In this document: piece by piece, positions 19,772-33,410 of the stretch
Layout: every line of letters begins with the position of its first letter
Position numbering within the stretch: position 1 is the first letter of the stretch
Assembly (NCBI GenBank): GCA_029777095.1
Contig: JAKOTS010000057.1
Location: 1-64,000 of the forward strand
Direction: 5' to 3'
DNA from: Actinomycetes bacterium
GTDB lineage: Bacteria > Actinomycetota > Actinomycetes > Actinomycetales > Microbacteriaceae
Length of the DNA stretch: 64,000 nucleotides
The notes under the pieces: model-generated
Told to the model about the DNA's origin: nothing
What the model saw: only the letters and a program-made list of their open reading frames with translations
The model's database searches: none
Position numbers and translations under genes: made by a program

Positions 19772-21412
19772 CTATGCCGGGATGTTCACCGTGCCAACGA
19801 GGTGCACGTGCACGCCCAGGCGCTCGAACATTGCGGCCTTCGCGAGCAGCGCGCGATCGGCGGTTTCGGCGTCCGGCGCGTAGACCAGCTGCGCGTGGTT
19901 GGCCTTGTGGTGCGCCATGAACTGGTCGCGCGTGACATCGTGCAGCACGACGTGGGCGATGGGCCACTCGGGGTTCGTGGCATCCTTGCGTCGCTGCGTC
20001 TCTTCGGCGGGGAGCTCGACGACCGATCCGCGGAGGAGGTCGACGTGCAGCTCGCCACCGGCGATGTAGACGCGGCTCAGGACGATCTCACCGGGCTTCG
20101 ACACACCGTTGAGCGTCGCGCCGCCGGCCGGGAAGAAGACGTGGCCCTGGCGCCAGCCCTCTGCCTTGTCGTAGCCACCGAGGTGCGATGCGGGCACCGA
20201 ACCCGAGATCTCGTAGACCCAGACGAAGTCGCCGCCGAAGTCTTCGCCCCAGCGCACATCGTGCAGCGTGTTGTCGGGCACGAGGCCCATCGCACGCCAG
20301 ACGCGGTCGGTGATGAGCGCGTCGACAGCAACGCCCTCGTCGGCCTCGTTGAAGTGGGGGAACGCGCGACCCTCGTGCAGCACGCGCGAGCCGTCGCGGC
20401 TCGTCACTGGCGGACGCTCGGTGGCGTTGAGCAGGCCTTCGGCGAGATCGGATGCCGGAACCAGGTCCTTCAGGCCCTGCTGGTACTGAATGCCCACCGC
20501 GTCGAGACCGAAGTCGTCAGATATGCGCAGCGCCGCGATGTACATCTTGTACTGCCAGCGCAGCTGCGTGGTGGTCAGCTCGGTCGCCTCGTCGGTGCCG
20601 AGCTTGAAGGTCATGCCGTGGTCGATCAGCCAGGTCCCAACGGCCTCTGCCTCTTCGTCACCCACGGTGAGCATTTCGGCGTAGAGCGCCGACTGCGACA
20701 GGCGCTCCTTGTAGATGCCGAGCTTGTTGAGCAGCTCGTCATCGAAGATCGCGTTGTACATGCCCATGCAGCCCTCATCGAACACGCCGATGATTGCCTT
20801 GTCTGCCAGCATCTCGTCGGCGAGCGCGTAGCCGAGCTCGCGCTCGGGGCTCTCGGCGAGCGCCGGAAGGGGGCGCACGTGCGAGACGTCGTGCGTGATG
20901 CTGCCGGTCTCGATCCACTCGGCGAGCTTGGTCTTGAACCACTCGTCGGTGAAGTCAACGCTCCACAGGGTCGAGTAGGGCTTGTCCATCTTGGTGAGGC
21001 CGGCGTTCAGGCCGAGCAGGCCCACGAGGCCAGGCCACTCGCCCTCGAAGTTGGCGACGGTGAGGATCGGTCCTTCGTGCGTGCGCAGGCCCGCGAGCAC
21101 GTGGTGCGAGTACTGCCAGACGGCCTCGGCAACGATCAGCGGCGCGCCGGTGGGGATCGACTTGAAGACCTCCATGCCCATGCGCTGGCTCGAGATGAAG
21201 CCGTGGCCGGTGGCCGGGTCGATCTCATTTGCGCGGATGACGGTCCAGCCGAGATCGGCGAACGCTGCGGTGACAGCGGCCTCCATGGCCGCCTGGGTCG
21301 GCCACCCCTCGGTATTGGCGGGTTCGCGCAGGTCGCCGCTCGCGATCAAGTACGCGGTTTTTGGCGCGGCAACCGGGCGTTCGCTTCGAACGGGCAGAGT
21401 GTATGTGCTCAT
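19772..21412 (-). CDS. L-fucose/D-arabinose isomerase-like protein
   Basis: 546 aa FucI-like; FDEGCMGMYNAIFDDELLNKLG; overlaps the kinase gene by 4 bp. Confidence 0.75.
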   Translation of the reverse strand: MSTYTLPVRSERPVAAPKTAYLIASGDLREPANTEGWPTQAAMEAAVTAAFADLGWTVIRANEIDPATGHGFISSQRMGMEVFKSIPTGAPLIVAEAVWQYSHHVLAGLRTHEGPILTVANFEGEWPGLVGLLGLNAGLTKMDKPYSTLWSVDFTDEWFKTKLAEWIETGSITHDVSHVRPLPALAESPERELGYALADEMLADKAIIGVFDEGCMGMYNAIFDDELLNKLGIYKERLSQSALYAEMLTVGDEEAEAVGTWLIDHGMTFKLGTDEATELTTTQLRWQYKMYIAALRISDDFGLDAVGIQYQQGLKDLVPASDLAEGLLNATERPPVTSRDGSRVLHEGRAFPHFNEADEGVAVDALITDRVWRAMGLVPDNTLHDVRWGEDFGGDFVWVYEISGSVPASHLGGYDKAEGWRQGHVFFPAGGATLNGVSKPGEIVLSRVYIAGGELHVDLLRGSVVELPAEETQRRKDATNPEWPIAHVVLHDVTRDQFMAHHKANHAQLVYAPDAETADRALLAKAAMFERLGVHVHLVGTVNIPA

Positions 21413-22929
21413 TTCGTGCTTCTTTCTGTGCGTTGCAAGCGAGCGAGCTCGTGGACCACTCGCTTGGTGTTCTCGTAGGTTTCGAGGTACAGCGCGAACA
21501 GCTCGTCATAGGCTGCCGCGACATCGGGGTTCGGTTTGATCGTTTGGGCGACGGGATTCCACTCGCCCATCGTCGGCTCGGTGCCGGGGGCCGCGATCGC
21601 GCACGCGGCGAGGAACGCGACACCGTAGCTCGCGCCGATCGTCGTGCGGGGCACCTCCTGCGTGAGGCCCGTGACGTCGGAGACGACCTGCAACCAGAGC
21701 GCACCCTGGGTGCCACCGCCGACGGCAACGATGCGGCGGATGTCGGCGCCGGCCGCGCGCATGGTCTCGACGTTGTGCCGCACGCCGAAGGCCGTGGCCT
21801 CCAGCGCCGAGCGATAGAGGTCACCGCGGGTGTGACTGAGCGTCAGCCCGGCGATCACGCCGCGGGCGTCCGGGTCGAGGATGGGGGTGCGCTCGCCCGC
21901 GAAATAGGGCAGCGTCAGCAGGCCCCGCGCGCCGGGACCAGATTCTGCGGCCTCGGCCAGCAGCGTCGGGTAGTCGGCGCCCGAAAGGTCTTTCAGCCAC
22001 GCGGTCAGCGCGCCCGAGGTCGAAAGCCCGCCGGCGAGGTTTCGGGTGCCGGGAAAGGCCCCGACCGTCGTCCACATCGAGGGGGTGCGAAGCGTCTCGG
22101 TGCCCGTCGCAACCAAAAACATCGTGGTGCCGTACATGAGCATCAGGTCGCCGAACTCGTGGGCGCCGACGCTGACAGCCTCGCTCCACGCATCGATCGT
22201 TCCGGCAATGACGGGAATGCCCGCGGGCAGACCGGTTGCGGCGGCTGCGGCATCCGTCACCTGACCGGCGATGTCGCCCGCCCAGAGCAGGCGGGGCGCC
22301 TCGATGCCGGGTGCGTAACGCGCCCAGTTGTCGGCATGCCACTCTTCGCGCTCGACGTCGTAGAGGGGCGAGACCTGGCTCGCCGACTGGTGGTCGAGCA
22401 CGTAGGCGCCGGTGAGGTGGCGGGCGAGCCACGAAGCGGGCATGAACAGGCGGCGCGCGGCGGCGTAGGCGGCCGGCTCTTCGTCGGCAATCCACACGAT
22501 CTTGGGCCCACCGGCCTGCGTGGTGAGCGTCGAGCCGCCCACGCGCGTGATCTCGGCCACGCCGAGCTCGTCGGTCATCCGGTCGATCTGGGCGGTCGCT
22601 CGCGTGTCGACGCCATACAGAATGGCCGGGCGCACCGGCTCGTCGGCGTCGTCGGCAAGCAGCACGCAGGGCCCCATGCCGCTGACCCCCACTGCCGCGA
22701 TCTCGACTTCAAGCTGCGAAGCGGATGCCGCGGCCAGCAGCTCGCGCGTCAGCTGCACAAACTCGGCCCACCAGATGCGGCCGTCCATCTCGACCCAGCC
22801 TGTGCGGGGGCGCTGCACGTCGTGTGCGACCGTGGCCGAGGCGAGGATCTCGCCGTGAGCGTCGACAAGGACACCCTTGCTGCTTGATGTGCCGATATCG
22901 ACACCGATGGTGCACCGCGCGGGCATCAT
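21409..22929 (-). CDS. FGGY-family carbohydrate kinase (predicted D-ribulokinase)
   Basis: CTIGVDIGTSSSKGVLVDAHG; IVAVGGGTQGALWLQVVSDVTG. Confidence 0.9.
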   Translation of the reverse strand: MMPARCTIGVDIGTSSSKGVLVDAHGEILASATVAHDVQRPRTGWVEMDGRIWWAEFVQLTRELLAAASASQLEVEIAAVGVSGMGPCVLLADDADEPVRPAILYGVDTRATAQIDRMTDELGVAEITRVGGSTLTTQAGGPKIVWIADEEPAAYAAARRLFMPASWLARHLTGAYVLDHQSASQVSPLYDVEREEWHADNWARYAPGIEAPRLLWAGDIAGQVTDAAAAATGLPAGIPVIAGTIDAWSEAVSVGAHEFGDLMLMYGTTMFLVATGTETLRTPSMWTTVGAFPGTRNLAGGLSTSGALTAWLKDLSGADYPTLLAEAAESGPGARGLLTLPYFAGERTPILDPDARGVIAGLTLSHTRGDLYRSALEATAFGVRHNVETMRAAGADIRRIVAVGGGTQGALWLQVVSDVTGLTQEVPRTTIGASYGVAFLAACAIAAPGTEPTMGEWNPVAQTIKPNPDVAAAYDELFALYLETYENTKRVVHELARLQRTERSTK

Positions 22930-22974
22930 GTTCTCCTCGTGAAACGTGCGGGCGCGTGCTGCGCTCACACCTAG

Positions 22975-22988
22975 TGAAATCGATTTCA
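22975..22988. promoter_or_regulatory. LacI operator 1 (kinase-isomerase promoter)
   Basis: TGAAATCGATTTCA, perfect 14-bp palindrome. Confidence 0.85.
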
Positions 22989-23077
22989 AGTTTAGTTGTA
23001 GAAGTGGTCAGTAGGGCGACGGACAAGGGCGACGAACTGGGGCGCGCGAGGCAGGCTGCGTGCTCACCCGCGCGGGG

Positions 23078-24085
23078 CTACCCGCCCGCTGGCACCGCAG
23101 GTGCATCGCACCCACGGGCTGGTTGCAGTTCGCTGCGCAACACCACCGTGCGTGCGGGTTGCTGGTCGCCATCGATGCGCTCGAGCAGCATCTTTGCCGC
23201 GGTGACGCCCATGTGGCGGGCGGGCAGCCGCACCACGGTCACGGCACTCGGCGAGAGCGTTGTGAACGGGAGCGAGCCCACCACCGCCACCCCGAACTTG
23301 GGCGGCGTCAGCCCGCGCTCGGTGAGCACCTGAATCGCCCCCACGCCGAGCAGATTGTTTGCCGCGACGACCGCGTCGGGCGGCTCGGGCATCGACAGCA
23401 GCTCTTCCATTTTGGCGCGGCCGCCATCAACCCGAAACGTCGAAAAGCGCAGGTAGGGTTCTGGGTCGAAGTCGGGCAGGCGCGCGGCAAGCACGGCCCG
23501 CCATCCCTCGGCGCGCTCCTGCGCGGTCTCGATCGGCTCGGGCCCCGTGATGCACGCGATGCGGGTGAACCCCGCCTGCACGAGGTTCTCGGTGGCGGCC
23601 TGTCCGGCCGCGCGGTTCTCCATCACAACGCCGTCGATGTCGTAGCCGGCGCCGCGATCGACGGCCACAATCGGTCGCCCCGTGGCGATCAGATCGTCGA
23701 GATTCGTGTGATCGGATGCCGGTGCCAAAATCACGCCCGCCATCCGCTCCGAGATCGCGATCTTCAGGTAGTTCGCTTCCTTCTCGATCTGCGAATCCGA
23801 GTTGCAGATCACGAGCGAGTAGCCGGCCGCTGAGGCGACGTCTTCGACGCCCCTGGCCATCTCGGTGAAGTAGGGGTTTTCAATGTCGGGGAGCACGAGC
23901 GCGATGACCTCGGAGGCCTGCCTGCGGAGGCTCCGCGCGTTGCGATTGGGCGTGAAGCGCAACTGCTGTGCAGCGTCGCGCACCGCGAGCGTCTTCTGTT
24001 CTGACACCCCCATGCCGTTGAACACGCGTGACACCGTCGCCGGAGACACCCCCGCGAGCTTCGCAACCTCATAGATCGTGACCAT
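23078..24085 (-). CDS. LacI-family transcriptional regulator
   Basis: VTIYEVAKLAGVSPATVSRVFNGMGVSEQKTLAVRDAAQQLRFTPNRNARSLR. Confidence 0.95.
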   Translation of the reverse strand: MVTIYEVAKLAGVSPATVSRVFNGMGVSEQKTLAVRDAAQQLRFTPNRNARSLRRQASEVIALVLPDIENPYFTEMARGVEDVASAAGYSLVICNSDSQIEKEANYLKIAISERMAGVILAPASDHTNLDDLIATGRPIVAVDRGAGYDIDGVVMENRAAGQAATENLVQAGFTRIACITGPEPIETAQERAEGWRAVLAARLPDFDPEPYLRFSTFRVDGGRAKMEELLSMPEPPDAVVAANNLLGVGAIQVLTERGLTPPKFGVAVVGSLPFTTLSPSAVTVVRLPARHMGVTAAKMLLERIDGDQQPARTVVLRSELQPARGCDAPAVPAGG

Positions 24086-24119
24086 GTATCGCCCCCTCCC
24101 CTGCGTGTGATTCGTTGTC

Positions 24120-24133
24120 TGAAATCGATTGCA
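24120..24133. promoter_or_regulatory. LacI operator 2 (upstream of lacI)
   Basis: TGAAATCGATTGCA. Confidence 0.85.
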
Positions 24134-24164
24134 TCACACTCGCTAAATGCGTCAAAATCCGGCG

Positions 24165-26765
24165 TCAGCTCATCGGTCGTCCCCCCTTGACCTCGCCGCT
24201 CGCGCCCCCGCCGGCCGCAAAGACCGGAGCGGCGGCTGGCGCCCCTGCAGAAAGCACCACCCGCCCCAGCTCGCCATCCCCAAATCGAATCACCGTGGCA
24301 TCGAGCACCCCGGCCGCGCAGCTCACCCGTACTCGCCCCCCGAGCACGTCGACGGTGCCGTGCCCGGTCGATGACACCCACGGCCAGCGACCGTCGCGGG
24401 CGAGGTGCATCTCGCCGCTCAGCTCGTCGATTCGCACGCCGGTGCGTGCCTGCAAGACCGTCCACCCCGCCATCGCCCGCGAGTAGTGGTCGCCGCATTC
24501 GATCTCGTTGTACGGGTTGCGGCGCCGGCCATCGTGCCGTGTCCAGAGCGCATCGAGCACGGCGTCGGCTTCGGCATCCAATCCCTCCCACAGGCAGTGC
24601 GCCGCCACCTGATATTCGATGCCGCTCCACACCTCGTCTGCATACCGCGTCGGCACCGCCGGGCGCCCACCCGATGGCCACGAACACATCAACAGGCCCG
24701 AATCATCGGCGGCATCGGCGTAGACCCGGTACGGGTGCTCGAAGTTCTCGAAGCCGTGTTTGAGGTTGGTGGCGACCACGTGGGCAAGCGCGGTGCGCAC
24801 GTGGTCTGCGGGCAGGATGTGCCCGAGACCGAGTTGGTGCGCCCACCACTGGCCGATCAGCTGGTCGCTCAAGGTCCCCGTCAACCACTGGAAATCAGAC
24901 GGGTCGTCGGGGTCGAGCTTTTGCACATAGTGGGTGCCGTCAAAGAGCAGCTCGTCATAGAGGCGCGAGCCCGACTCGAACCGTTCGCGCACCTCGGCCG
25001 CGACCTCGGCGTCGCCCGCCACCGCGGCCAGCTCTTCCATCGCACGAAGCGCCGCGAGCCACAGCGTGCCCATGAACGTGTTCACACCGGCGAGATCGAT
25101 GTCGTGCGTGCTGGGTTGGATGCCTCGCAGCACGCCATCCCCATCGGCATCCCATTTCTCGGCAATATGCCGATACAGCGTGACCAGCCGCGGCCAGCGC
25201 GCCTTCACCCAGGCGTCCCCGGCGCCGTGTTGCGCGTCGCGGAGCGACTTGAGGATCGTGGCAAGCATGCCGTCGAGCGCGGGTTCTTCGGGACCGCCGA
25301 TCATTTCGTCCCACATTTGCCGCAGATAGACGGGCACGCGCAGGCGATGCGGGATCGCGCCGTTCGGCGCCTGCATCACGTCAAATTCGGTGTCGCGCAT
25401 GTTGCGCTCAAGCGAGGGCCAAAGGGCGGCGAGCGCAGCCTCGTACTGCCACACGTGGGTGCAGTTGAGCGGGCACGAGCCACCGAACGCGCCCGACCAC
25501 ATCGTGGTCGATGCCCCGAGCGACCCCTCATACCCATAGAAGCGGCCGTCCGCGCCCATGAAACACGTGGGGCTGCGCACAAGCGAGGCCTGCGCCGCCA
25601 TCCGGTCGACGGTGCGTTCGTCAAGATCCGAGTCGATGAGCGTGCGGGTCCACGCGAGCGTGTCTTGCACGAGCGAGTCCCAGTTCTCGGCCACCTGCTG
25701 CTGCACATCGAGGGCGTCGAGATAGCGGCCGGCGTAGGAGTTGCCGACGAAGAAGCGTGAACCGCCCCACTCGGGGTGCGGTTGGCCGAACTGCTCGATG
25801 TCGACAAAGCGGTTGGAGAAGTGCCACGACATGCTGAACCGAATCACCCGGGTTTGCCCGGGCTCAAGCCAGAACGGCACGCCCACGACACCCAGCCACG
25901 AGCGGCCCGGCGCGCTCGGCCCCGACGCCGAGCGCGGTCCGTTCAGCTGCGGGTCGGCGATCATCGGCGCCTGCTCGAGCTTCGCCCGACCGTTGTTGAG
26001 CGCGCGCGATTCGAGGAACGAGACGAGGTGTTCGACGCCCGCGCACCGCGGCACGACCGCCGCATATTCATCGTCGGCCGCGAGCACCATCTGCCCGGCA
26101 AACTGGTCGCTCTCGGCGAGGCTCGGGTTGTCCATCACCACGCGGGTCCACCCCTTGCCGCGCACCAGGCGGTTGACGTTGCCGCCGAGCCCGGGGGTCG
26201 TCTCGGCAATGGGGGTGACGCCGTCCCAGCCGATCGCGTTCAACAGTGACCCGGCGAGCGTGCCGTGCACCTCGACGGGGCCGTCGTTGGTGAGGGTGAA
26301 TTCAAACAGGGCGGCGGGGATGCTGCTGGTATCGACATCGCCCGGAACCATGGGGTTGAGCACCCGCATGCTCGCGCGCAGCGGCACCCGATCGTCGCCG
26401 TACTCGACCTCGGCGACCGGGTAGGTGGCGCTGAATCGAGCCTCGGCCATGGTGCCGACGCGATCGGCGGCCCGAAGCATCCACTCGGGCACTTCGCCGT
26501 CGGTCACGAGCGGCGCCGCGGGATCGGGCACCGGGGTGCCCTGCAGCATTGTGACCACCTGCACCGGCGGCTCGACCCGAGAGAGCCGGAGCCAGAAGCC
26601 AGTGCCGGGCAGGGCGCCGCGGTGATTTGGCATGCCGCTGAGTTGCCATTGGCGAAGCGAGCCATCGGCGTTGACGGCGAACCCTCCGGTACCGATGCCC
26701 CCGACCGGCATTGCCAGTGCGGGTGCGTCGGTGTGCGGGATCCGTTGACCAAGAACCTGACTCAT
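24165..26765 (-). CDS. glycoside hydrolase family 116-like protein (candidate exo-D-arabinofuranosidase), no signal peptide
   Basis: AMPVGGIGTGGFAVNADGSLRQWQLSG; GSCPLNCTHVWQYEAALAALWPSLERNMRDTEF; GIQPSTHDIDLAGVNTFMGTLWLAALRAMEELA; start MSQVLGQ. Confidence 0.88.
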   Translation of the reverse strand: MSQVLGQRIPHTDAPALAMPVGGIGTGGFAVNADGSLRQWQLSGMPNHRGALPGTGFWLRLSRVEPPVQVVTMLQGTPVPDPAAPLVTDGEVPEWMLRAADRVGTMAEARFSATYPVAEVEYGDDRVPLRASMRVLNPMVPGDVDTSSIPAALFEFTLTNDGPVEVHGTLAGSLLNAIGWDGVTPIAETTPGLGGNVNRLVRGKGWTRVVMDNPSLAESDQFAGQMVLAADDEYAAVVPRCAGVEHLVSFLESRALNNGRAKLEQAPMIADPQLNGPRSASGPSAPGRSWLGVVGVPFWLEPGQTRVIRFSMSWHFSNRFVDIEQFGQPHPEWGGSRFFVGNSYAGRYLDALDVQQQVAENWDSLVQDTLAWTRTLIDSDLDERTVDRMAAQASLVRSPTCFMGADGRFYGYEGSLGASTTMWSGAFGGSCPLNCTHVWQYEAALAALWPSLERNMRDTEFDVMQAPNGAIPHRLRVPVYLRQMWDEMIGGPEEPALDGMLATILKSLRDAQHGAGDAWVKARWPRLVTLYRHIAEKWDADGDGVLRGIQPSTHDIDLAGVNTFMGTLWLAALRAMEELAAVAGDAEVAAEVRERFESGSRLYDELLFDGTHYVQKLDPDDPSDFQWLTGTLSDQLIGQWWAHQLGLGHILPADHVRTALAHVVATNLKHGFENFEHPYRVYADAADDSGLLMCSWPSGGRPAVPTRYADEVWSGIEYQVAAHCLWEGLDAEADAVLDALWTRHDGRRRNPYNEIECGDHYSRAMAGWTVLQARTGVRIDELSGEMHLARDGRWPWVSSTGHGTVDVLGGRVRVSCAAGVLDATVIRFGDGELGRVVLSAGAPAAAPVFAAGGGASGEVKGGRPMS

Positions 26766-26769
26766 GTTG

Positions 26770-27573
26770 CTACTCCTTCGTGGAGGACTGCGTGGAGGGC
26801 GTGGAGGGCTTTGAGGGCTTCGTGGGCTTCGTGGCGAACTTCGCGTCAAACGTCGTGGTGGTTCTCGTGAACAGCGGGGCGAGCGCCGGCAGCGACACCC
26901 CGGCGCGAACCACGGTGGGCCACGCGGCGCCGACGGCGAGCGCGGCCAGCAGGCCGGGGGCGAGGGCGGTGAGCCCCGGCAGCCCAGACATCCCGACCCA
27001 CGCGAGCGCACAGCCAACGATTGCGGTCGCGATGGCCGGGAGCGGAAACCGCAGCACCGAATAGCAGGCGACCAGCACGATCGCGCGCAGCGAGCTCTCG
27101 GGGCGGGCGTCCGCGAGCGGCAACGCCACGATCGCCACCAGCGCGAACACCACGGTTGCGAGCGAACCGGCGGTCGCGGCAATCGCGAACAACGTCGCCC
27201 CCGATTGCGCTGCGGCAAATGCCGCGACCAGGCTCAGTGCCGCGGCGAGCCCGCACGGCAGCACGATCGCCTCGGCCCGCAGCGCCCGGCGCCACCAGGC
27301 CGGGCGCGGGCCGGTGCGCTCGAACACCTCCGAGTGCAGGCGCTCGACGCAGGCAAGCAGCAGCGGGGCGCCAAACAGGCAGACGGCGAGCGCGACGACC
27401 GGGCTGTCGGCACCGAAAATCGCGCCGGCGATGAGGGTGGGCACCAAGAGGGCGCATCCGCTCGCCAACAACACCGGAAGACTTCGCCAGAACGCCATCG
27501 GCATCCGCCGCAAAACCGGGTCGGCCTGGCGCGAGGCGGCTGACTGCCCACCGAGCCCTTCGGCCGCGCTCAT
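26770..27573 (-). CDS. integral membrane protein of the glycan locus (YesL-like placement)
   Basis: Overlaps the permease stop (ATGA); several TM segments; low-complexity TKPSKPSTPSTQSSTKE tail. Confidence 0.7.
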   Translation of the reverse strand: MSAAEGLGGQSAASRQADPVLRRMPMAFWRSLPVLLASGCALLVPTLIAGAIFGADSPVVALAVCLFGAPLLLACVERLHSEVFERTGPRPAWWRRALRAEAIVLPCGLAAALSLVAAFAAAQSGATLFAIAATAGSLATVVFALVAIVALPLADARPESSLRAIVLVACYSVLRFPLPAIATAIVGCALAWVGMSGLPGLTALAPGLLAALAVGAAWPTVVRAGVSLPALAPLFTRTTTTFDAKFATKPTKPSKPSTPSTQSSTKE

Positions 27574-28469
27574 CCTTTCAGCCCCGATGACGCAACGCTC
27601 GCCACAAACTGGCGCTGGAAGATCAGGAACACGATCAGCAACGGGGCGACCACCATCGTGATGGCGGCGAAGACGACCGTCGCGGGCGCCGCACCGAACC
27701 CCTGCTGCAACACGACAAGGCCCAGGGGCAGCGTCATGTTCTCTGGGCTTGAGAGGAAGATCAACGGTCCGAAATATCCGTTCCAGGATGCCTCGAAGCT
27801 CAGGATCGCGAGCGCCGAGAGTGCGGGGCCCGACAGTGGCAGCAGCATCCGGAACAAGATCCATGCGTGCCCGGCGCCGTCGATCTTCGCGGCCTCGTCG
27901 AGCTCGCGTGGGATCGTCCTGAAGTACTGCGTGAGGAAGAAGATCTGGAAGACGTTCACGAGGGCGGGCAACCACAGCGCGGCGAGCGTGTCGACCAGAC
28001 CGAGCTGGCGCATCATGATGAAAATCGGGATGATCACGAGCTGCGCCGGCACCATCATGGCCGAGAGCATGACCACAAGGAGCGCGCCGCTGCCCCGGAA
28101 CGAAACGCGGGCGAACCCATAGGCCGCGAGCACCGAGAAGGTCAGCGACCCGACCGTGATGATCACCGCGAGAAAGAGCGAGTTCATGAACTGCTGCATG
28201 AATGGCACGTACTCGAACACGTTGACGAAGTTGTCAACCGTGAACGGCACGGGCAACCACTTTGGGGGTTCGGTAAACGCCTCCGCGCCCACCGTGAAGC
28301 TCGTCGAGATGAGCCAGTACAGCGGGGCAAGCATCAGCACGCCGAACACGATCAGCACGATGCTGAGCACGACGTCGCCCCAGTGCAGGCGTCGCGTGTG
28401 CGTGCGCGCGTTCACGCGCCCGAGCAGGTCTGGTTGGAGGCCGGTGCGAACACCGGGTGCAATGCTCAT
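27570..28469 (-). CDS. carbohydrate ABC transporter permease (CUT1, MalG-like)
   Basis: EAAKIDGAGHAWILFRMLLPLSGPALSALAILSFEASWN (EAA loop). Confidence 0.93.
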   Translation of the reverse strand: MSIAPGVRTGLQPDLLGRVNARTHTRRLHWGDVVLSIVLIVFGVLMLAPLYWLISTSFTVGAEAFTEPPKWLPVPFTVDNFVNVFEYVPFMQQFMNSLFLAVIITVGSLTFSVLAAYGFARVSFRGSGALLVVMLSAMMVPAQLVIIPIFIMMRQLGLVDTLAALWLPALVNVFQIFFLTQYFRTIPRELDEAAKIDGAGHAWILFRMLLPLSGPALSALAILSFEASWNGYFGPLIFLSSPENMTLPLGLVVLQQGFGAAPATVVFAAITMVVAPLLIVFLIFQRQFVASVASSGLKG

Positions 28470-29365
28470 GCTTCAAACACCCACTTCTTGCGCCCCCAGA
28501 ATTGCAGGAGCGTCACGCCCATCACGATGAGGAATACCAGGATGGCCACGGCCGCCGCGTACCCCATTTGGAACGACTGGAAGCCCTTTTCGTAGAGGTA
28601 CATCACGATGGTCGTGGTCGAGTTTTGCGGCCCGCCCTTTGTAATGATCTGGATCGGTTCGAACACCTGGAACGCGCCGATGAACGTGATGATCATGGCG
28701 AAGAACATGGTGGGCGACATCAGCGGGAGCGTGACCTTCCAGAACACCTGCCACGAGTTCGCGCCGTCAGTGCGGGCCGCTTCGATGAGCTCGGGCGAGA
28801 CCGTTTGCAGCCCGGCGAGCATGATGATGAAGGTGAAGCCCAGCGTGTGCCAGAGGTCGATGAAGATAATCGCCGGGAGCGCCCATGACGGATCGGTGAA
28901 GAAGTTGGGGGTGTCGATGCCGATCATCGCCGCGTATTGCGAGACGAACCCGAACGTGGGGTCAAGCACGTACTTCCACAGCAGCGACACTGCCGCCCAC
29001 GAGATGAGGAACGGGAAGAACACGGCGACCCGCAAGAAATAGCTCAGGTATCGGTTGACCACCCGGTTCACGGCAATTGCCAGGAGCAGTCCCAAGACGA
29101 TGTGCGTCACGATCGACGCGAACGCGAAGACGAACGTGTTCGCGAGCACGCGCGGCAGGATCGGATCGGTGAACAGCTTGACGAAGTTGTCGAGCCCGAT
29201 GAACACCGGGTCGGTGAGCAGATCCCACTTGAAGAGGGCGAGCCCAATGGCGAAGACGAACGGGCCCGCGATGAAGATCAGGAACAGCAGGGTGGCGGGG
29301 CTGACGAACAGCCAGCCCGCCACCTCGGTGCGACGCCGCTGGCGCACTGCGCCAGGACGTCGCAC
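28466..29365 (-). CDS. carbohydrate ABC transporter permease (CUT1, MalF-like); start uncertain (29365 or 29440)
   Basis: EAARTDGANSWQVFWKVTLPLMSPTMFFAMIITFIGAFQVF; overlaps the downstream permease by 4 bp. Confidence 0.9.
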   Translation of the reverse strand: MRRPGAVRQRRRTEVAGWLFVSPATLLFLIFIAGPFVFAIGLALFKWDLLTDPVFIGLDNFVKLFTDPILPRVLANTFVFAFASIVTHIVLGLLLAIAVNRVVNRYLSYFLRVAVFFPFLISWAAVSLLWKYVLDPTFGFVSQYAAMIGIDTPNFFTDPSWALPAIIFIDLWHTLGFTFIIMLAGLQTVSPELIEAARTDGANSWQVFWKVTLPLMSPTMFFAMIITFIGAFQVFEPIQIITKGGPQNSTTTIVMYLYEKGFQSFQMGYAAAVAILVFLIVMGVTLLQFWGRKKWVFEA

Positions 29366-29375
29366 CGATGCTGAA

Positions 29376-30698
29376 CTACTTGTTAGCGACAAGGCTCTCC
29401 AGCTTTGTCTGGGCCGCGTCGAGGGTGGCCTTCGCGTCACCCTGACCGGAGATAATCGTCAGCCACGCCTCTTCGATGACCTTCTGCGCCTCGGCGCCAC
29501 GGTCAATCGACGGGATCGGCGTTGCGTAGCTCATCGCTTCGCTCAGGCGGATACTGCCCTCGGGCGCGTTGTCGGTGAAGGCACTCGACTTCGCCACCGA
29601 TTCGCGTGCGGGCACGATGGTGCCACCGATGGTGGCGAAGTACTCACCGGCATCCTTCGACATCAAGAACTTGATGAAGGTCCAGGCGGCCTCCTGGTTC
29701 TTGCTGTTCTTCGCGATGTTCCAGGCATCCCAACCCACTGGCGACCCGTTCGTCGTCTTGGTGGGCCAGTTGACGACCACCGTGTCGGCGACCATGTCGA
29801 GATTACGGATGCTGAGGACCGGCCAACGACCACCGTTGAGGCTTGCGAGCTTGCCCTGCTTGTAGGCTGCCTCGGCGTCAAACTGCCCGCCCGGTTCGGG
29901 TGAGAGCCCCTCGGCGACGAGCTGGCGTGCCATCTCGGCCGATTGGATCGCGGCGGGGCTGTTGTACGTCGGCTTTGTCCAGTCCGCGTTGAAGGTGCTC
30001 GCACCGTTCGTGGTCAGCCACGGCATTGCATCACCGAAGTAGCTCGACCCAGCGGCCTGAATGTAGGCGCCGGTCTTGTCTTTGATCGCGTGGCCGGCCG
30101 CGAGATATTCGTCCCACGTCCAGTTGCCATCAGCCGGGATCGTGACCCCCGCGGCGTCGAAGACCGACTTGTTGAGGTACATGCCCATGGTGTTGAACCC
30201 GCCCGGAATGAAGAGCGTTTCACCATTGGGGCCCGACGCAAACTCCTCGTTGAACTGCTTCAACTTGGGGTTGATGTCGGCCCAGTAGTCATCGACGACT
30301 GCCTTGTCTTGTTCGATGAACGGGCCGAGGTCGGCGAGCACACCCTTTGACGCGAAGAGGCGCTGCCCCTCGGTTGCCACCTGGATGATGTCGATGACCT
30401 GCCCACCGGCGAGCCGCGTGGCGACGGTGTTCGAGAAGTCGGCCCAGTTGCCGGCTGGGATGCCCTGGGCCTTGAGCTTGATGTCGGGGTACTGCTTGTT
30501 GAACTCTGCAAAGAGCGCGTTGAACGCCTTCTGCTGGTTGGCGTCACCGAGGTAAACGAAGGTCAGCTCGCCACTATCGGGACTCCCCGACGGGCTGCTG
30601 CCTCCACCACCTCCGCCGCCTGAACACCCGGCAATCAACACACTTGTCGTGGCGATGGCAAGCACTGCAAGTGCTGTTCTGCCTCTTCTGAAACGCAT
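29376..30698 (-). CDS. extracellular sugar-binding lipoprotein of the CUT1 ABC transporter
   Basis: Lipobox VLIAGCSGGGGGG; FNKQYPDIKLKAQGIPAGNWADFSNTVATRLAGGQVIDI; start MRFRRGRTAL. Confidence 0.92.
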   Translation of the reverse strand: MRFRRGRTALAVLAIATTSVLIAGCSGGGGGGGSSPSGSPDSGELTFVYLGDANQQKAFNALFAEFNKQYPDIKLKAQGIPAGNWADFSNTVATRLAGGQVIDIIQVATEGQRLFASKGVLADLGPFIEQDKAVVDDYWADINPKLKQFNEEFASGPNGETLFIPGGFNTMGMYLNKSVFDAAGVTIPADGNWTWDEYLAAGHAIKDKTGAYIQAAGSSYFGDAMPWLTTNGASTFNADWTKPTYNSPAAIQSAEMARQLVAEGLSPEPGGQFDAEAAYKQGKLASLNGGRWPVLSIRNLDMVADTVVVNWPTKTTNGSPVGWDAWNIAKNSKNQEAAWTFIKFLMSKDAGEYFATIGGTIVPARESVAKSSAFTDNAPEGSIRLSEAMSYATPIPSIDRGAEAQKVIEEAWLTIISGQGDAKATLDAAQTKLESLVANK

Positions 30699-30817
30699 CG
30701 CATCCTCCTCAGACTTGAGACTCGTCGGTGAGTCACCACGGAAGGGGAGCATTGGCATCGATTCTCCGGTGCTCGTAAACGTGGCGGGTCGGATGACCTC
30801 TCACGCAGGAGGCTAGG

Positions 30818-30831
30818 AGAAATCGATTTCA
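30818..30831. promoter_or_regulatory. LacI operator 3 (upstream of the sugar-binding protein gene)
   Basis: AGAAATCGATTTCA. Confidence 0.82.
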
Positions 30832-30977
30832 TCCACAAGGGCCTGAGCGAGCGCTCGCACTTGCCCACTCGAGCGCGATTGCATGGATTGTTACGGGGAA
30901 TCGAAAACCCACGCGATTTTCCGGGGCTGTCGCCCGGCAGGGCCGTTGACAGCCCGGGAGTGTGTCACTAGATTGAC

Positions 30978-30999
30978 TGAAATCGATTGCACAATCGAT
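30978..30999. promoter_or_regulatory. LacI operator 4 (upstream of the DUF2961 gene), composite site
   Basis: TGAAATCGATTGCA overlapping ATCGATTG-CA-CAATCGAT. Confidence 0.85.
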
Positions 31000-31038
31000 G
31001 GACGCGTCATGCCAGAACACGAGGAAGTGCCTGTCAAG

Positions 31039-32187
31039 ATGAATACACAATCGCCGCTCAATTCCGGCCTTTCGAGCCCCGGACTTTCGAGCATCGCTGG
31101 CCTGCGGCCGCTGCGCACGAGATCGATCTCGCCAGAAAACTTCGACGGCAGCGTCGGCGGCGGCGCACGCGCCACCGAGGGCACCGGCGCAGCGTGCGCC
31201 GTCGACCTCGGACCGGGCTGGAAGATCTCACCGAGCGTCGACATCAAGGCCGGCGACACTTTCGACCTCGCGAACATTTCGGGCGCCGGCAAGATCACCC
31301 ACATCTGGATCACGACACACACCGACAACTGGCGCACCCTCATCCTCCGCGCCTACTGGGACGGCGCCGACGAGCCCGCGGTCGAGGTGCCCTACGGCGA
31401 CTTCTTCTGCAACGGCTGGGGCGTGTTCGCGCAGGTCACTTCGCAGGTGATCGCCGCGAACCCGCACGGCGGGTTCAACTCGTACTGGCCGATGCCGTTT
31501 CGCACCGGCGCGCGCCTCACCGTCGAGAACACCTCGGTCGTCGACGTACGCGTGTACTACCAAATCACGTACGAAGAGGGCGGCAACTACGAGAACGACG
31601 GCTACTTCCACGCCCAGTGGCGCCGCTCGAACCCGCTCGACGAGGCAACACCCCACGTCCTCGTGGAGGGCGTCGAAGGGCAGGGCCACTACGTCGGCAC
31701 CTACATCGCGTGGGGGGTCAACTCCAACGGGTGGTGGGGCGAGGGCGAGGTGAAGTTCTACCTCGATGACGACGTCGAGCACCCGACAATCTGCGGCACC
31801 GGCACCGAGGATTACTTCGGTGGGGCCTGGAACTTCGATGTGCCTGGTGAGGGCTACACCGCGTTCTCGACGCCATATTTGGGGATGCCGCAGGTGATCC
31901 GGCCCGATGGGCTCTACGTCAGCCAGCAGCGATTCGGGCTCTACAGGTGGCACCTGCCCGACCCGATCTTCTTCTCGAAGCGGCTCGCGAAGGTCGATGT
32001 GCAGGCGCTCGGTTGGAAGAGCGGATGGCGCTACCTGCCGCTGCGCGACGACATCGCCTCGACCGCCCTGTTCTACCTCGACCGGCCCACCGCCCGTCGA
32101 CCGAAGTCGCCCTCGGCCGACGACATGGAGGTACACCTAGGCACAAGCGCGGTGCCCGACCTCGGTGCGACACCGCCGCGGTCATAG
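31039..32187 (+). CDS. DUF2961/GH172-family glycoside hydrolase (candidate exo-alpha-D-arabinofuranosidase), no signal peptide
   Basis: RTRSISPENFDGSVGGG; EVPYGDFFCNGWG; GTGTEDYFGGAWNF; GLYRWHLPDPIFF. Confidence 0.92.
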   Translation: MNTQSPLNSGLSSPGLSSIAGLRPLRTRSISPENFDGSVGGGARATEGTGAACAVDLGPGWKISPSVDIKAGDTFDLANISGAGKITHIWITTHTDNWRTLILRAYWDGADEPAVEVPYGDFFCNGWGVFAQVTSQVIAANPHGGFNSYWPMPFRTGARLTVENTSVVDVRVYYQITYEEGGNYENDGYFHAQWRRSNPLDEATPHVLVEGVEGQGHYVGTYIAWGVNSNGWWGEGEVKFYLDDDVEHPTICGTGTEDYFGGAWNFDVPGEGYTAFSTPYLGMPQVIRPDGLYVSQQRFGLYRWHLPDPIFFSKRLAKVDVQALGWKSGWRYLPLRDDIASTALFYLDRPTARRPKSPSADDMEVHLGTSAVPDLGATPPRS

Positions 32188-32199
32188 CGGGGCTGGTCT

Positions 32200-33363
32200 T
32201 CAGCCCGACACCTTGTCGAGATGCACTGAGAACCAGAACACGTTGTACGGGCCCCACTGCGAGAGATCGAAGTAGACCGTGCGCCCGTCGTCGCTCACAT
32301 AGCGCGGGTTCATGTAGGGCGCGTACAGGCCCGGATATTCGGTGCCCGACACAATCTCGAGCGGGTCGCCCCACGGCCCCCACGGGGTGAGCCCTTCGCG
32401 CATGTACGCCGAGCCGCCATCCGAGTACGTCATCAGCCAGCGCTCGAGGTAGTTCGAATACATCACCGACATCTCGCCGATCGTGCCATCGAGCACGATC
32501 GCGGCGTCGTCCATCTGCGCGCTCCACTTGGGTGAACCCGAGGCATCGGTGCCGGTGAAATAGCTGTAGGCACCGGCATCCTCAACCGCGTCCGTCGTCG
32601 CAGGCACGCGCATGAGCGCGACGCCGCCAAATCGGCCGGCAGGAATCGCCCAGATGTAGACGTAGTCGGTGCCGCCTTCGCGCACCTGCACCGTCGCGAA
32701 CTGAATGAAGTTTGAGTCGCCCGGCCAGCGAACGCCCTCGACCTGGGTCCAGGTTTGGCCCTGGTCGATTGACTTTGCAAGGCCGCTGTAACCGGCATCC
32801 CACATGCCCGCATCGCCCCAGTGCGAGACCGACATGTAGGCCAGGTACATCGCGTCGCCGATCGCGAACGCGTGCGTGGGAATCTTGGTGACCTCGCCGC
32901 TGCCATCGCCCGGCCCGTGATCGCCCTCGACCAGTGCCGCCGCGAGCCCGATCGCATCTTCGGCCCACCCGCCAAAGGTGATGCCGTCGCTCGGGTCGTC
33001 GTCGGTGCTCCACGCCATCACGTTCGAGCGCCACATGCCGCCCTCGCCGCCATAGGCATCCGGGTCGCGCAGTCCGAACGTATCGCCAAAGAAGAAGTAG
33101 GTGCGATCGTCGACCGTCAGCATCGAGCCGAGGTCGGTACCGGCAACGCCCACCGCCTCGGTGTCGTTGATTGCCCCCGGGCCGGTGAGCTGGGCGATTT
33201 CTTTCAACCCGCTCACGCCCGAGAGCACAAAGGGGCGATCCGCGTCGGGGCTGACGTCGACCCGGCCGCCGCCAGCGCCCCCGGCGCTACACGCGCCGAG
33301 CAGCAACGCGAGCGCGGTGGCCGCGCCGATGGTCACAAGCAACTGCGATGCTCGAGTGCGCAT
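32200..33363 (-). CDS. DUF4185/GH183-family secreted lipoprotein (candidate endo-D-arabinanase)
   Basis: Lipobox LLLGACSAG; TYFFFGDTFGLRDPDAYGGEGGMWRSNVMAWSTDDDPSDGITF; LYAPYMNPRYVSDDGRTVYFDLSQWGPYNVFW. Confidence 0.88.
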   Translation of the reverse strand: MRTRASQLLVTIGAATALALLLGACSAGGAGGGRVDVSPDADRPFVLSGVSGLKEIAQLTGPGAINDTEAVGVAGTDLGSMLTVDDRTYFFFGDTFGLRDPDAYGGEGGMWRSNVMAWSTDDDPSDGITFGGWAEDAIGLAAALVEGDHGPGDGSGEVTKIPTHAFAIGDAMYLAYMSVSHWGDAGMWDAGYSGLAKSIDQGQTWTQVEGVRWPGDSNFIQFATVQVREGGTDYVYIWAIPAGRFGGVALMRVPATTDAVEDAGAYSYFTGTDASGSPKWSAQMDDAAIVLDGTIGEMSVMYSNYLERWLMTYSDGGSAYMREGLTPWGPWGDPLEIVSGTEYPGLYAPYMNPRYVSDDGRTVYFDLSQWGPYNVFWFSVHLDKVSG

Positions 33364-33396
33364 GATCCCCCTCGATCGATGTGCCTCGAGCGTACT

Positions 33397-33410
33397 CGGC
33401 ATCGATTTCA
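33397..33410. promoter_or_regulatory. LacI half-degenerate operator 5 (upstream of the DUF4185 gene)
   Basis: CGGCATCGATTTCA; one intact half (ATCGATTTCA). Confidence 0.6.

Follow-up and report, generated by a model that had tools for sequence, protein, structure and literature searches.

D-Arabinan is a hallmark component of the mycobacterial cell wall and, to our knowledge, it was not until 2023 that the enzymes digesting it were identified. Previous work on M. arabinogalactanolyticum showed induction of genes of its D-arabinan locus by D-arabinose or by an extract of mycobacterial cell walls, and this induction and the associated enzyme activities are those demonstrated in that relative (PMC10509167); no LacI protein or operator is mentioned in the main text of the paper. 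LacI-family regulators of local sugar regulons follow recognised rules, in that an even palindrome with a central CG is found a short distance upstream of catabolic operons that neighbour the regulator gene (PMC4052901, the main text of which mentions neither arabinose nor ribulose). Among open-licence papers, nothing relevant was found on D-arabinose with LacI and Microbacterium, and no paper was found on a regulator of D-arabinan genes.

Here, a window of 64,000 nucleotides (the whole stretch of DNA that was analysed), from a genome of 2.43 Mb in 132 contigs that is 97% complete, was examined. The genome belongs to Microbacterium, since the closest named relatives of the LacI-family regulator encoded in the window are from Microbacterium and Agromyces and the same-genus genomes used for comparison are Microbacterium. 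The product of the GH172 (DUF2961) gene (31039..32187, + strand), a putative exo-alpha-D-arabinofuranosidase, has the exo-alpha-D-arabinofuranosidase 8ic8 as its best solved relative (E 8.8e-235), the GH183 (DUF4185) lipoprotein (32200..33363, − strand; PF13810), a putative endo-D-arabinanase, matches the endo-D-arabinanase 8hhv (E 5e-49), and the GH116 glycosidase (24165..26774, − strand), a putative exo-beta-D-arabinofuranosidase, gives a long match to the exo-beta-D-arabinofuranosidase 8ic6 (E 1.8e-94). Because of these three matches the locus is taken to serve D-arabinan utilisation and, judged by sequence, is a compact variant of the M. arabinogalactanolyticum locus (PMC10509167). The two have in common GH183, GH172 (84% identical), GH116, an ABC importer, a kinase and an isomerase; their LacI proteins are orthologous (74%) and their operators the same. 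Conversely, the window has one GH183 gene as opposed to four, its ABC transporter is a different one, and its GH116, placed after the transporter, is of a distant type. Two such distant GH116 types (∼31–37% identical) substitute for each other among these loci, the comparison taking in the window gene and those of L055, L059, L060, L062, L066, L071, L076, L084 and L091; proteins of the window type retain equivalents of ExoMA2 Asp557 (acid/base) and His446. Where ExoMA2 has its nucleophile, Glu431, these proteins have Ser, and a few residues earlier they all share the Glu of YEGSLG.

The remaining genes of the locus are all on the − strand. The ABC transporter comprises a solute-binding lipoprotein (29376..30700, start approximate; PF01547, with a visible lipobox) and two sugar permeases (28466..29440, the start of which may be further in, and 27570..28469; both PF00528). 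The genes for the second permease and GH116 are separated by a 267-residue open frame (26770-27573) that has no Pfam match and is partly hydrophobic-looking; it may encode a membrane protein belonging to the transporter operon. The FGGY sugar kinase, a putative D-ribulokinase (21409..22932; PF00370/PF02782, with an NCBIfam XylB-like match below cut-off), is followed by a putative D-arabinose isomerase (19772..21412) with an L-fucose isomerase C-terminal domain; a PDB search with the latter gave no match, and its assignment therefore rests on PF02952 and context. The LacI-family regulator (23078..24085) combines an N-terminal LacI HTH (PF00356) with a periplasmic-binding-protein-like sensor domain (PF00532/PF13377), these Pfam matches being above cut-offs, and its recognition helix, VSPATVSRVFN, is identical among the commonest variants of the protein. 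It passes no specific NCBIfam equivalog cut-off. The ribose repressor RbsR (PDB 9ny7; NCBIfam NF007743) is its best solved-structure and family match and has the same architecture, but the score of the window protein (170.5 versus 531 bits) falls far below the NF007743 equivalog cut-off and its gene is linked to D-arabinose rather than ribose genes.

The short motif TGAAATCGATTTC(A/G) is the repeated element upstream of the D-arabinan-degradation genes in this Microbacterium. Four putative operators have at most one mismatch each to TGAAATCGATTKCA. A perfect palindrome, TGAAATCGATTTCA (22975..22988, − strand), lies ∼45 bp upstream of the kinase start and immediately 3′ of a −10-like TAAACT; TGCAATCGATTTCA (24120..24133, − strand), read towards lacI, lies ∼35 bp upstream of the start of that gene; TGAAATCGATTTCT (30818..30831, − strand), read towards the transporter operon, sits within the 17 bp spacer of TTGTGG-N17-TAGCCT; and TGAAATCGATTGCA (30978..30991, + strand), read towards GH172, lies 3 bp past the −10 of TTGACA-N17-TAGATT and covers the predicted +1, a layout also found in locus L091. 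A fifth, half-degenerate putative operator of uncertain function, TGAAATCGATGCCG (33397..33410, − strand), is located ∼33 bp upstream of the GH183 start. The window sites, as palindromic even operators with a central CG near promoters and 30–140 bp upstream of genes, resemble those of other LacI-family local sugar regulons (PMC4052901), from which they differ in having a conserved core of 14 bp.

All five strings listed in the initial annotation are present at these coordinates. When all positions of the window were scored with a position weight matrix trained on sites from other species, exactly these sites ranked as the top five (31.3, 25.7, 25.7, 24.4 and 13.8; next best, 7.9). The description there of the site at 33397 as a half-degenerate copy stands in so far as the left half, TGAAATCG, is perfect, whereas its mismatches to the genus consensus TGAAATCGATTTCG number two rather than three. 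With up to three mismatches allowed, 12 matches were present in the window against 4.7 expected from dinucleotide shuffles, 1 of 100 of which reached 12. In the whole genome, the 13-mer GAAATCGATTKCA was found with zero mismatches only at the four strong sites. Near-matches outside the locus were rejected as coding coincidences, those fetched (one mismatch to the 13-mer or two to the consensus) being inside long open frames. Only one further LacI-type palindrome exists in the genome, TGAAAACGATTCCA (G000:C109:111429-111442); it lies immediately 5′ of a different lacI gene, of which it is probably the operator.

Across 149 Microbacterium genomes, the exact motif TGAAATCGATTTCR was present in 52 of the 53 with an orthologue of the window LacI (a match at E at most 1e-100) and in none of the 96 without (Fisher p ∼1e-39, a value to which shared descent contributes, the events not being independent); 120 of the 121 exact copies were within 20 kb of lacI. 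The LacI-negative genomes, which amount to hundreds of megabases free of any exact copy, were used as the better control, a reversed-pattern control having been rejected as unfair because reversal creates rare TAG-containing words. Absence from LacI-negative sequence, together with the tight clustering near lacI, is hard to explain otherwise and, since the exact form occurs only where the lacI gene is present, the local LacI-family repressor is almost certainly the reader of the motif. Motif density at unrelated promoters comparable to that at the locus, the outcome that the initial annotation had set against its own proposal, was looked for and not seen. No such motif was found within two mismatches near LacI homologues of 46–50% identity (L044 and L045), and the operator therefore belongs to the closer group of LacI orthologues. 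The sole exact operator far from lacI in the 149 genomes (L173:3935; G122:C1:617934) lies ∼40 bp upstream of a gene of the GH127 family (PF07944), which may be a remote member of the regulon.

The positions of the sites are conserved in 80 named Microbacterium and Agromyces loci, in which the genes for LacI, kinase and isomerase usually form one group. In 79 of the 80, the interval separating lacI from the kinase/isomerase genes contains a site with no more than one mismatch; the sequence of the other (L122) stops before that region. Most of the 14 columns of the kinase-upstream site are invariant or nearly so. Other sites precede genes for GH172, GH183 and solute-binding proteins, some of these solute-binding proteins being too divergent to be found with that of the window, and operators are kept where the transporter behind them has been replaced by a very different one. 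The genus consensus is asymmetric, with one half-site perfect and the other weakened. An operator just upstream of lacI was found in all 46 loci in which GH172 is divergent from lacI but in only 5 of 32 otherwise; its role is therefore at least as much in the control of GH172 as in that of lacI, and what is conserved is not lacI autoregulation in itself. In the window, where GH172 is next to the transporter, this gene has its own operator copy, and lacI retains one too. In L079, L087, L101, L105, L114, L116 and others, the combination of LacI, operator, kinase and isomerase has no D-arabinan glycosidases nearby, which suggests that the use of free D-arabinose is the core function.

In M. arabinogalactanolyticum, all of the published D-arabinose-induced genes fall in units downstream of a copy of the motif, with putative operon limits drawn from gene order. 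Copies are found ahead of the kinase-GH116-isomerase unit, in the interval from lacI to GH172 (behind which are two GH183 genes), ahead of the transporter operon, which holds a further GH183, and ahead of the final GH183. Among 136 exact 13-mers from the 80 loci, a TANNNT −10 lies exactly 2 bp 3′ of the 14-mer in 81% and a TTG lies 7–8 bp 5′ of it in 80%; indeed, 109 copies have a complete predicted promoter of 17 or 18 bp spacing with the operator within the spacer. The transporter site of the window has this geometry and the GH183 site a weaker form of it, while at GH172 and the kinase the operator comes right after the −10. Both placements fit repression by exclusion of RNA polymerase from these predicted promoters.

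Co-occurrence, conserved positions, promoter geometry and the published D-arabinose induction of orthologues thus support the local LacI regulon that the initial annotation had proposed for these genes. Very probably, judging from sequence comparison, the regulator is a dedicated repressor of its own gene, the kinase-isomerase operon, the ABC transporter-GH116 operon and GH172, and probably, more weakly, of GH183, with release by D-arabinose or its first metabolites. In this model, in which LacI binding, the repressive sign and the effector are what we infer, the protein would bind within or just downstream of the promoters and block RNA polymerase. Imported D-arabinan fragments would be cut to D-arabinose, and this sugar or its first metabolites (D-ribulose, D-ribulose-5-phosphate) would release the repressor, allowing all of the pathway to be expressed.

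If the locus were simply one of the targets of a global LacI-type regulator (CcpA-like or RbsR-like), this would account for the general LacI-family form of the motif, and the genome has five LacI-domain genes. Such a regulator is nonetheless very improbable, given that the exact motif is missing from all 96 LacI-negative genomes and is essentially confined to the neighbourhood of lacI, and that even the loose family pattern TGNAANCGNTTNCA recurs in the genome at one other place only, adjoining a different lacI gene. Nor is it at all probable that the same regulator acts at the same sites as an activator or, in the style of PurR, with a co-repressor, as might be supposed from some LacI-family proteins that bind DNA with ligand (PMC4052901). 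The sites occupy the −35/−10 interval or overlap +1, positions at which a bound protein obstructs polymerase, and this argues for repression rather than activation; D-arabinose also induces the genes in relatives.

With respect to the effector of the proposed repressor, D-arabinose or an early metabolite is likely because the genes reported as induced in M. arabinogalactanolyticum fall in operator-preceded units. An imported arabino-oligosaccharide could instead be sensed, as the stronger induction of GH172 by mycobacterial cell-wall extract than by D-arabinose (6.0- versus 3.5-fold) might suggest, but this is unlikely: D-arabinose alone suffices for induction, the regulator, operator, kinase and isomerase are kept in many genomes without nearby glycosidases, and the nearest solved relative is a ribose repressor. 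The extent of the regulon at GH183 is more finely balanced. The fifth site scores 13.8, as opposed to at least 24.4 for family sites, and in the closest relative, L091, whose LacI is 91% identical, this position reads CGGCGTCGATGCCG, with the same −10 and a score far below that of any site, such that 33397 may be a decaying operator; that it is not an operator, leaving the window GH183 outside the regulon, has slightly less than an even chance. Against this, it is the best-scoring position of the window after the four strong sites, its perfect half lies at the family-typical distance of exactly 2 bp before the −10-like TACGCT, full sites are found at GH183 orthologues elsewhere, and scores as high occur at only ∼11 of 511,144 coding positions. 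The prospects of 33397 working as an operator thus appear roughly even, and GH183 is a probable member only, because the site is half-degenerate and the nearest relative does not keep one. Contrary to what had been hoped for from a genome-wide scan, no further regulon members were found in this genome, in which 32200..33363 is the only DUF4185 gene and GH183 paralogues are absent.

The mechanism is that of a conventional LacI regulon, and such local regulons are common; ordinary in kind, this one is apparently new in its description. In the papers found, there is no description of how D-arabinan genes are switched on in non-mycobacterial degraders, and a defined regulator and operator would explain the published induction by D-arabinose. 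There is perhaps an even chance that the regulator is a genus-wide dedicated sensor of D-arabinose, its operator remaining fixed while transporter type, GH116 type and GH183 number are swapped. If so, the operator alone could serve as a sequence tag leading to further, as yet unknown D-arabinan enzymes, for example the remote GH127-family gene of one species. The regulator and operator together are a natural candidate for a D-arabinose biosensor.
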